From assembly GCF_000219625.1 (NCBI RefSeq), contig NC_018211.1, forward strand, positions 1,426,001-1,490,000: a stretch of DNA of 64,000 nucleotides. Direction: 5' to 3'. Under the pieces are notes generated by a model. The model saw only the letters and a list, made by a program, of their open reading frames with translations, had not been told where the DNA came from and did not search any database. The stretch's first letter is position 1. Each line of letters opens with the position of its first letter. Origin of the DNA: Zymoseptoria tritici IPO323. Taxonomy: Eukaryota > Ascomycota > Dothideomycetes > Mycosphaerellales > Mycosphaerellaceae. This document shows, in pieces, positions 24,238 to 24,452 of this stretch. The position numbers were made by a program, and so were the translations under genes.

Positions 24238-24403
24238 GCCGGGGTAGTACGTGACACTCCAAAATCACCTGATTCGAGCGTTGTCTAACAACATCTCTCA
24301 GGCTCAATCGGTAGAGCGTGTGGCTCTTATGTCTCGCCCTGATGCCAATACCAGGGCTTGAACCGGAACCTCAAGGTCGTGGGTTCGAGCCCCACCTTCG
24401 GCT
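24238..24403 (+). tRNA. tRNA-Lys(CUU), split by two introns
   Basis: The exons, joined, fold into a 73-nt cloverleaf. Acceptor stem: GCCGGGG (24238-24244) with CTTCGGC (24396-24402); all seven pairs form, two as G-U. Then T8, A9; D-arm GCTC/GAGC (24302-24317); anticodon CTT (24326-24328); T-arm GTGGG-TTCGAGC-CCCAC (24379-24395); discriminator T (24403). The B box is GGTTCGAGCCC (24382-24392). A usual anticodon-loop intron of about 38 nt lies at 24330-24367. A second 55-nt insert separates A9 from G10. The anticodon stem has one U-U mismatch (29-41), which could mean reduced function. No other part of the region can supply the 5' acceptor strand, so either the 55-nt insert is removed or the gene is dead. 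Confidence 0.8.
24247..24301 (+). other. 55-nt spliceosomal-type intron inside the tRNA-Lys gene
   Basis: The insert begins GTACGT (24247-24252), has CTAAC at 24285-24289 and ends CTCTCAG at 24301; the putative branch A is 13 nt from the 3' end. This matches the GT-AG introns of the protein genes in this window in length (mostly 50-60 nt) and signals. It lies exactly between tRNA positions 9 and 10. It splits the A box after its first two bases, but the intron's own final AG leaves an A box with only one mismatch. The removal mechanism is inferred. Confidence 0.65.
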
Positions 24404-24446: not shown

Positions 24447-24452
24447 TTTTTT
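24447..24452 (+). terminator. Possible RNA polymerase III terminator (T6)
   Basis: A run of six T lies 44 nt after the tRNA's discriminator base. It is the first T run of this length downstream on the same strand. The distance is long for a fungal tRNA gene. Confidence 0.4.

Follow-up and report, generated by a model that had tools for sequence, protein, structure and literature searches.

The window analyzed here, 64,000 nucleotides (nts) of contig 8 (NC_018211.1, positions 1,426,001 to 1,490,000) of Zymoseptoria tritici IPO323, contains at its positions 24238-24403 what we take, with a probability of about 0.93, to be a real nuclear gene for the transfer RNA (tRNA) tRNA-Lys(CUU). In this reading the gene, called Lys C8 below, is interrupted between tRNA positions 9 and 10 by a U2-type GT-AG spliceosomal intron and between positions 37 and 38 by a normal tRNA intron. 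Judged from the sequences, it would be one of at least 11 tRNA genes of Z. tritici that carry one or two spliceosomal introns of 50 to 60 nts, at 12 positions in all. The parts of the gene are as follows.

24238..24246, + strand: exon 1, tRNA-Lys(CUU) positions 1 to 9, GCCGGGGTA; the paralogs L040 and L041 have the same letters.
24247..24301, + strand: 55-nt GT-AG insert at 9/10, with donor GTACGT, branch motif CTAAC, and acceptor CAG; its 3' end is CTAACAACATCTCTCAG.
24302..24329, + strand: exon 2, positions 10 to 37 (D-arm, anticodon 5' stem, CUU anticodon, and A37); G10 is nucleotide 24302.
24330..24367, + strand: canonical 37/38 tRNA intron of 38 nts, without GT-AG signals; its exact ends vary by program.
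24368..24403, + strand: 3' exon, positions 38 to 73 (anticodon 3' stem, variable loop, intact T-arm with the B box, acceptor 3' strand, and U73).
24447..24452, + strand: T6 run, a candidate terminator for RNA polymerase III (Pol III), 43 nts past the gene.

A preliminary description of the window had placed a 55-nt insert exactly between A9 and G10 and a usual intron in the anticodon loop; both were read directly, the first at 24247-24301 and the second as 38 nts at 37/38 (24330-24367). It had also claimed that removing the insert restores the acceptor stem and the D-arm of a tRNA, and this proved correct. On the unspliced gene ARAGORN called no tRNA and Rfam gave no match at the gathering score; at a lax threshold the model RF00005 matched at model positions 9 to 63 only, with 28.0 bits (cut-off, 29). 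With the 9/10 insert taken out, ARAGORN called tRNA-Lys(ctt), and the score on our own tRNA scorer, which gave 24.4 to 26.3 for five intact genes or repeats, rose from 11.41 to 25.22. Among all removals of 46 to 72 nts in this gene, that of the 9/10 insert scored highest, tied with the same junction slid 1 nt either way. The U-U mismatch in the anticodon stem (29-41), which the description had offered as a caution, is there, but it is common to all three Lys(CUU) copies of the genome and thus is no mark of decay in this one. A separate observation concerns the 37/38 intron: nucleotides 24354-24364, GGGCTTGAACC, which are also present in the paralog on contig 3, are complementary, with one G-U pair, to GGTTCGAGCCC in the T-arm at 24382-24392.

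The genome searches covered 39,686,251 bases in 21 contigs. A query with the Lys C8 gene gave four matches, which were the gene itself and two other loci, one of them matched in two pieces. These paralogs, L040 and L041 on contigs 3 and 5 (Lys C3 and Lys C5), have the same exon 1, followed at 9/10 by GT-AG inserts that differ from that of Lys C8 and measure 52 and 55 nts, so that both the 5' exon and the insert site are kept in two further genes of the same genome. Both also hold a second insert in the T-loop, at 58/59 (GTTCGA/GTGAGT...AG/GCCCC); the T-loop of Lys C8 is unbroken. When the exons are joined, all three genes give one same mature tRNA. The 37/38 intron is nearly identical in Lys C8 and L040, whereas the GT-AG inserts have diverged: their interiors are 50 to 61% identical at 9/10 and 65% at 58/59, and shuffled sequences gave 50 to 51%. 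The tRNA-Asp(GUC) genes have a similar arrangement. The gene on contig 1 (Asp C1) has an insert at 30/31 and none in the T-loop; a query with joined exons found Asp C12 and Asp C5, which have the 30/31 insert plus a T-loop insert at 59/60, and also an Asp 5' fragment on contig 7. The mature sequences of the three Asp genes are the same. In both families, what distinguishes paralogs at the T-loop site is exactly the insert, which some have and others do not, and this, being independent of any scorer, is the best evidence for introns that we have.

We looked for an intact Lys(CUU) gene across the whole genome with patterns for the T-arm, for the anticodon plus the B box at several spacings, and for the D-arm, and found none, contrary to what would be expected if Lys C8 were a broken copy. 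The T-arm search gave 8 matches: the window gene, one tRNA-Leu gene, and 6 others that could not be read as tRNA. The anticodon and B-box searches gave 1 match, not a tRNA, at one spacing, 4 matches, none of them a tRNA, at another, and 14 at a third (reversed control, 52), of which 2 were Lys genes and the other 12 were seen as pattern matches only. The 24 matches to the D-arm pattern (reversed control, 41) were the 3 Lys genes, 2 Thr genes, 4 that were read and are not tRNA, and 15 known by pattern only. Of the patterns aimed at the split sites, that for 9/10 matched the 3 Lys genes and one unrelated coding-like stretch on contig 1, and that for the T-loop matched the two Lys genes that have this insert and nothing else; neither pattern had a match when reversed. 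The Lys core pattern had 0 matches in viral contigs. Across 14 long stop-to-stop open reading frames of the window, 387 of the 526 codons for Lys are AAG. As an observation apart, the 3' trailers of L040 and L041 are similar: each has a hairpin (AACCCGCTGGGTT versus ATCCCGCTGGGAT) in which pairing is kept by a double change, followed by a T5 run.

The idea that a tRNA gene had gained a spliceosomal intron, put forward for this one gene, is supported beyond it: six tRNA families have genes split in this way. Altogether, 18 GT-AG inserts were read in 11 tRNA genes (three Lys, two Thr, three Asp, His, Arg(UCU), and Ser(AGA)) at 12 positions. The two tRNA-Thr(AGU) genes, Thr C3 and Thr C5, were met through the D-arm search; one is split at 25/26 and 49/50 and the other at 29/30, and both give the same mature tRNA once the exons are joined. 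The tRNA-His(GUG) gene has an insert at 5/6, tRNA-Arg(UCU) has inserts at 8/9 and 68/69, and tRNA-Ser(AGA) has one in the variable arm and one at 70/71. By our scorer, all 11 genes also contain a 37/38 intron, of 8 to 38 nts, and reach cloverleaf scores of 24.25 to 26.63 after removal of the inserts. With the inserts in place, ARAGORN misses the three Lys genes, Arg(UCU), and His, reads Asp C1 as Arg(acg), and finds Ser(AGA) only with a 76-nt intron; of 7 spliced sequences it identified 5 as expected, gave one a wrong anticodon, and found no tRNA in the last. The joined-exon query of the genome, with 9 candidates scored, found no uninterrupted gene for Asp, His, Arg(UCU), Thr(AGU), or Ser(AGA).

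Four of these genes came from a survey with the B-box pattern GGTTCGANTCC, which gave 129 matches (control, 49); 100 were listed, and the sequence was read at 95. Among the matches listed, 8 tRNA genes were read confidently, half of them with GT-AG introns (Asp C1, His, Arg(UCU), and Ser(AGA)) and half without (Leu(CAG), Arg(CCG), Arg(CCU), and Ser(CGA)). Left out of this count were the loci L117, L142, L164, L183, and L126, the doubtful L108, L109, L116, L122, L141, and L191, and tRNA-like repeats such as L107, L143, L156, L165-L167, L174, and L186. The remaining 7 intron-bearing genes came from searches other than this survey. In an Rfam tRNA search of the genome, with 63 of 1206 candidates scored, repeats resembling tRNA-Cys(ACA) and tRNA-Tyr(AUA) dominated; the Arg(UCU) gene was among its matches as well.

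The 18 inserts are 50 to 60 nts long, with a median of 54 nts. All have a GTNNGT donor, an AG end (CAG in 12, TAG in 4, and AAG in 2), and a YTRAY branch motif (CTRAC in 16) with the branch A 9 to 13 nts from the insert end; as background, YTRAY starts 13 to 21 nts upstream of 4.7% of the AGs in the window. Because the inserts were picked by their GT-AG ends, the weight of the argument rests on unguided removal scans and on a comparison of 256 classes of end dinucleotides. The unguided scan scored every removal of 46 to 72 nts, with any ends, at 20 chosen loci. The best single removal was GT...AG, alone or tied, at 5 of them (Lys C8, Thr C5, Asp C1, His, and Arg(UCU)), the ties being mostly 1-nt slides, with a few other removals as well in Arg(UCU). 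The 15 loci at which the best removal was not GT-AG were intact controls, Ser(AGA), and tRNA-like or non-tRNA loci. When the 256 classes were compared with one or two removals, GT-AG came first or tied for first in 8 of 9 chosen loci. In 8 paralog pairs the identity of the insert interiors was 0.50 to 0.65 (shuffled means, 48 to 51%), and 4 of the 8 pairs beat nearly all shuffles (fraction, 0.010 or less), which points to a weak kinship between paralogous inserts. Runs of T5 or longer were absent from all 18 inserts; about one was expected by a rough hand estimate, so this avoidance is not significant.

Spliceosomal introns occur in the U6 small nuclear RNA (snRNA) genes of fission yeast and other fungi, and the preliminary description had cited U6 as a precedent. 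The precedent turned out to be closer at hand, because a U6 gene of the Z. tritici genome itself reads with two GT-AG introns.

G000:C8:1401150-1401650, - strand: U6 snRNA gene (L196), read as having two spliceosomal-type introns (51 and 50 nts) and a 13-nt middle exon.

The locus was seen as two weak Rfam matches (of 11) that lie 113 nts apart and correspond to the 5' and 3' parts of U6. It reads ACAGAGA/GTACGT...CTAAC...CAG/AGATTAGCATGGC/GTAAGT...CTGAC...CAG/CCCTGC and ends in T7; the 13-nt middle piece we take to be U6 from the consensus of that RNA. The two introns share the donor, branch motif, and AG end of the tRNA inserts.

Several results weigh against the interpretation of the inserts as spliceosomal introns in functional tRNA genes. 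The minimum-energy fold of the mature Lys RNA given by ViennaRNA has the acceptor and D stems but neither the T-arm nor the anticodon arm; when the Lys precursor is folded, the 37/38 intron is paired with the T-arm. ARAGORN reads the spliced Lys C5 as tRNA-Stop (tta) and finds nothing in Arg(UCU) with the first intron alone removed. In Ser(AGA), GT-AG is only 4th of the 256 classes, with one class higher, and the best single removal is not GT-AG; for this gene the stronger argument is that its isoacceptor Ser(CGA), which has no inserts, equals it in joined length. The candidate mRNA introns of the window (n = 8) match the inserts only in part, as 4 are 52 to 55 nts and 4, which are doubtful, are 71 to 104 nts. 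The joined-exon query missed the known Thr C3 copy and thus is not exhaustive for split copies. All U6 matches to Rfam in the genome (47 of 1853 candidates scored) are below the cut-off of 44 bits, as are matches in 10 of 14 prokaryote controls, and the top ones lie on contig 14 (25.7 bits) and contig 2 (23.9 bits), not at the locus that was read. Finally, five tRNA-like loci (L117, L142, L164, L183, and L126), and three more doubtful ones (L108, L109, and L116), do not yield a convincing reading with GT-AG introns; their inserts are long and lie within the anticodon loop or close to it. Removing a GT-AG segment raises the scores of L142 (from 13.6 to 23.3) and L164 (from 22.2 to 24.5), yet it leaves no U33, and the segment has no branch motif.

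The preliminary description had named a broken copy as the main risk, and the genome does contain many tRNA-Cys-like and tRNA-Tyr-like repeats in addition to the Asp 5' fragment on contig 7. That all the interrupted genes are broken or relic copies, with the functional tRNAs coming from elsewhere, is nevertheless very improbable: the mature sequences are identical among the three Lys and among the three Asp copies while the inserts diverge, no intact copies were found, and every insert has complete splice signals. On these grounds that explanation was rejected. The inserts might instead be ectopic introns of the tRNA endonuclease, cut at a bulge-helix-bulge (BHB) motif as in archaea or Cyanidioschyzon. 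BHB introns at unusual tRNA positions are known (PMC3978253), and a BHB central helix with 4/4 pairs is possible in 2 of the 18 inserts. In the other 16 the 4-bp helix is absent (in one fixed register), and all 18 inserts lie at positions other than 37/38. Moreover, the GTNNGT, YTRAY, and AG signals found in all 18 are not needed for BHB cutting, and U6 has the same kind of inserts. BHB introns were therefore rejected as extremely unlikely. Group I and group II introns were rejected also, since their ribozyme core is well over 100 nts and inserts of 50 to 60 nts are too short. Nor do the inserts look like copies of an introner-like element: compared among themselves, with the interior identities given above, they are not near-identical.

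If, as we prefer, these are tRNA genes with spliceosomal introns, the interrupted genes would be transcribed, most likely by Pol III, and the GT-AG introns would be cut out in the nucleus by the spliceosome, a route suggested by the U2-type look of the inserts and by comparison of the genes. Excision would rebuild the acceptor stem, D-arm, anticodon stem, or T-arm. End processing would follow, and the 37/38 intron would be removed by the tRNA endonuclease in the established pathway. RNase P, RNase Z, and the tRNA endonuclease could act only after spliceosomal excision where the latter rebuilds the acceptor stem, D-arm, or T-arm. Pol III is favored by the T runs after the genes and by the parallel with U6. 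The first run of T4 or longer lies 4 to 50 nts 3' of all 11 genes, as raw distances, and 4 to 10 nts after 5 of them (the two Thr and the three Asp genes); the U6 gene, which has introns of this kind too, ends in T7. These runs count against the alternative that the RNAs are real and spliced but are capped Pol II transcripts processed to tRNA, which we consider rather unlikely. We allow it some probability because the B box is split before its last C residues in four genes (Lys C3, Lys C5, Asp C12, and Asp C5); in addition, ACCAATCAG is present within ∼35 nts upstream of the tRNA start in Lys C3, Lys C5, and Thr C3. Several genes have TATA-like stretches farther upstream, which fit either polymerase.

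In eukaryotes, Asp and His are each decoded by one tRNA species, and all the Asp genes (three) and His genes (one) found in the genome are interrupted. The spliceosome is probably obligatory for several essential tRNAs in Z. tritici, and perhaps in its relatives. The introns of eukaryotic nuclear tRNAs are taught as a matter of protein enzymes acting at 37/38; in contrast to those canonical introns, removed by the tRNA endonuclease, the inserts lie elsewhere, are longer, and have spliceosomal signals. The introns of fungal U6 are more alike, being mRNA-type GT-AG introns of ∼50 nts in a short Pol III RNA, but the hosts in Z. tritici are tRNA genes, with inserts at many positions and beside the normal tRNA intron. 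In Cyanidioschyzon merolae, archaea, and the Guillardia nucleomorph, tRNA genes are likewise split at unusual positions, sometimes repeatedly (PMC3978253). The disruption there is described as BHB mediated, with many Guillardia introns lacking a defined BHB motif, and the portion of that source used here does not mention GT-AG spliceosomal signals for those introns. In Z. tritici and its relatives, introner-like elements are a reported origin of spliceosomal introns gained recently (PMC4457414); the tRNA inserts, compared among themselves in 8 paralog pairs, are only 50 to 65% identical in their interiors. In the literature searched, which leaves most subscription journals outside, we found no publication that describes tRNA genes with spliceosomal introns. 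As far as we searched, then, these would be ordinary spliceosomal introns in a gene class not known to have them.

In tRNA genes dependent on the spliceosome, two otherwise separate RNA-processing pathways would meet on a single precursor, and, if the interpretation is true, translation capacity would depend directly on splicing. Such genes would offer a natural system for studying how very short exons are spliced (the His intron is preceded by 5 tRNA letters, and the U6 middle exon has 13 nts) and how introns are gained by genes that encode no protein, with some paralogs having an intron that others lack. The usual tRNA-finding programs would overlook these genes or misread them, and, given the failures of ARAGORN with the inserts in place, the number of tRNA genes counted in fungi of this kind may be an underestimate. 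Another Dothideomycete, Peltaster fructicola, is reported to have only 44 tRNA genes by tRNAscan-SE (PMC7181583); hidden interrupted genes could add to low counts such as this one.

Some of the tRNA-like loci have features of their own. L117, L142, and L164 have good acceptor, D, and T arms and an insert of ∼60 to 97 nts in the anticodon loop with no U33 before it; an ordinary 37/38 intron does not fit. L116 and L117 (G000:C1:4796170-4796989) are tRNA-like, with B boxes 489 bp apart and inserts that resemble short imperfect tandem repeats. Most of the loci L009-L070 belong to a large tRNA-Cys(ACA)/Tyr(AUA)-like repeat family whose members show many C/T and G/A differences.
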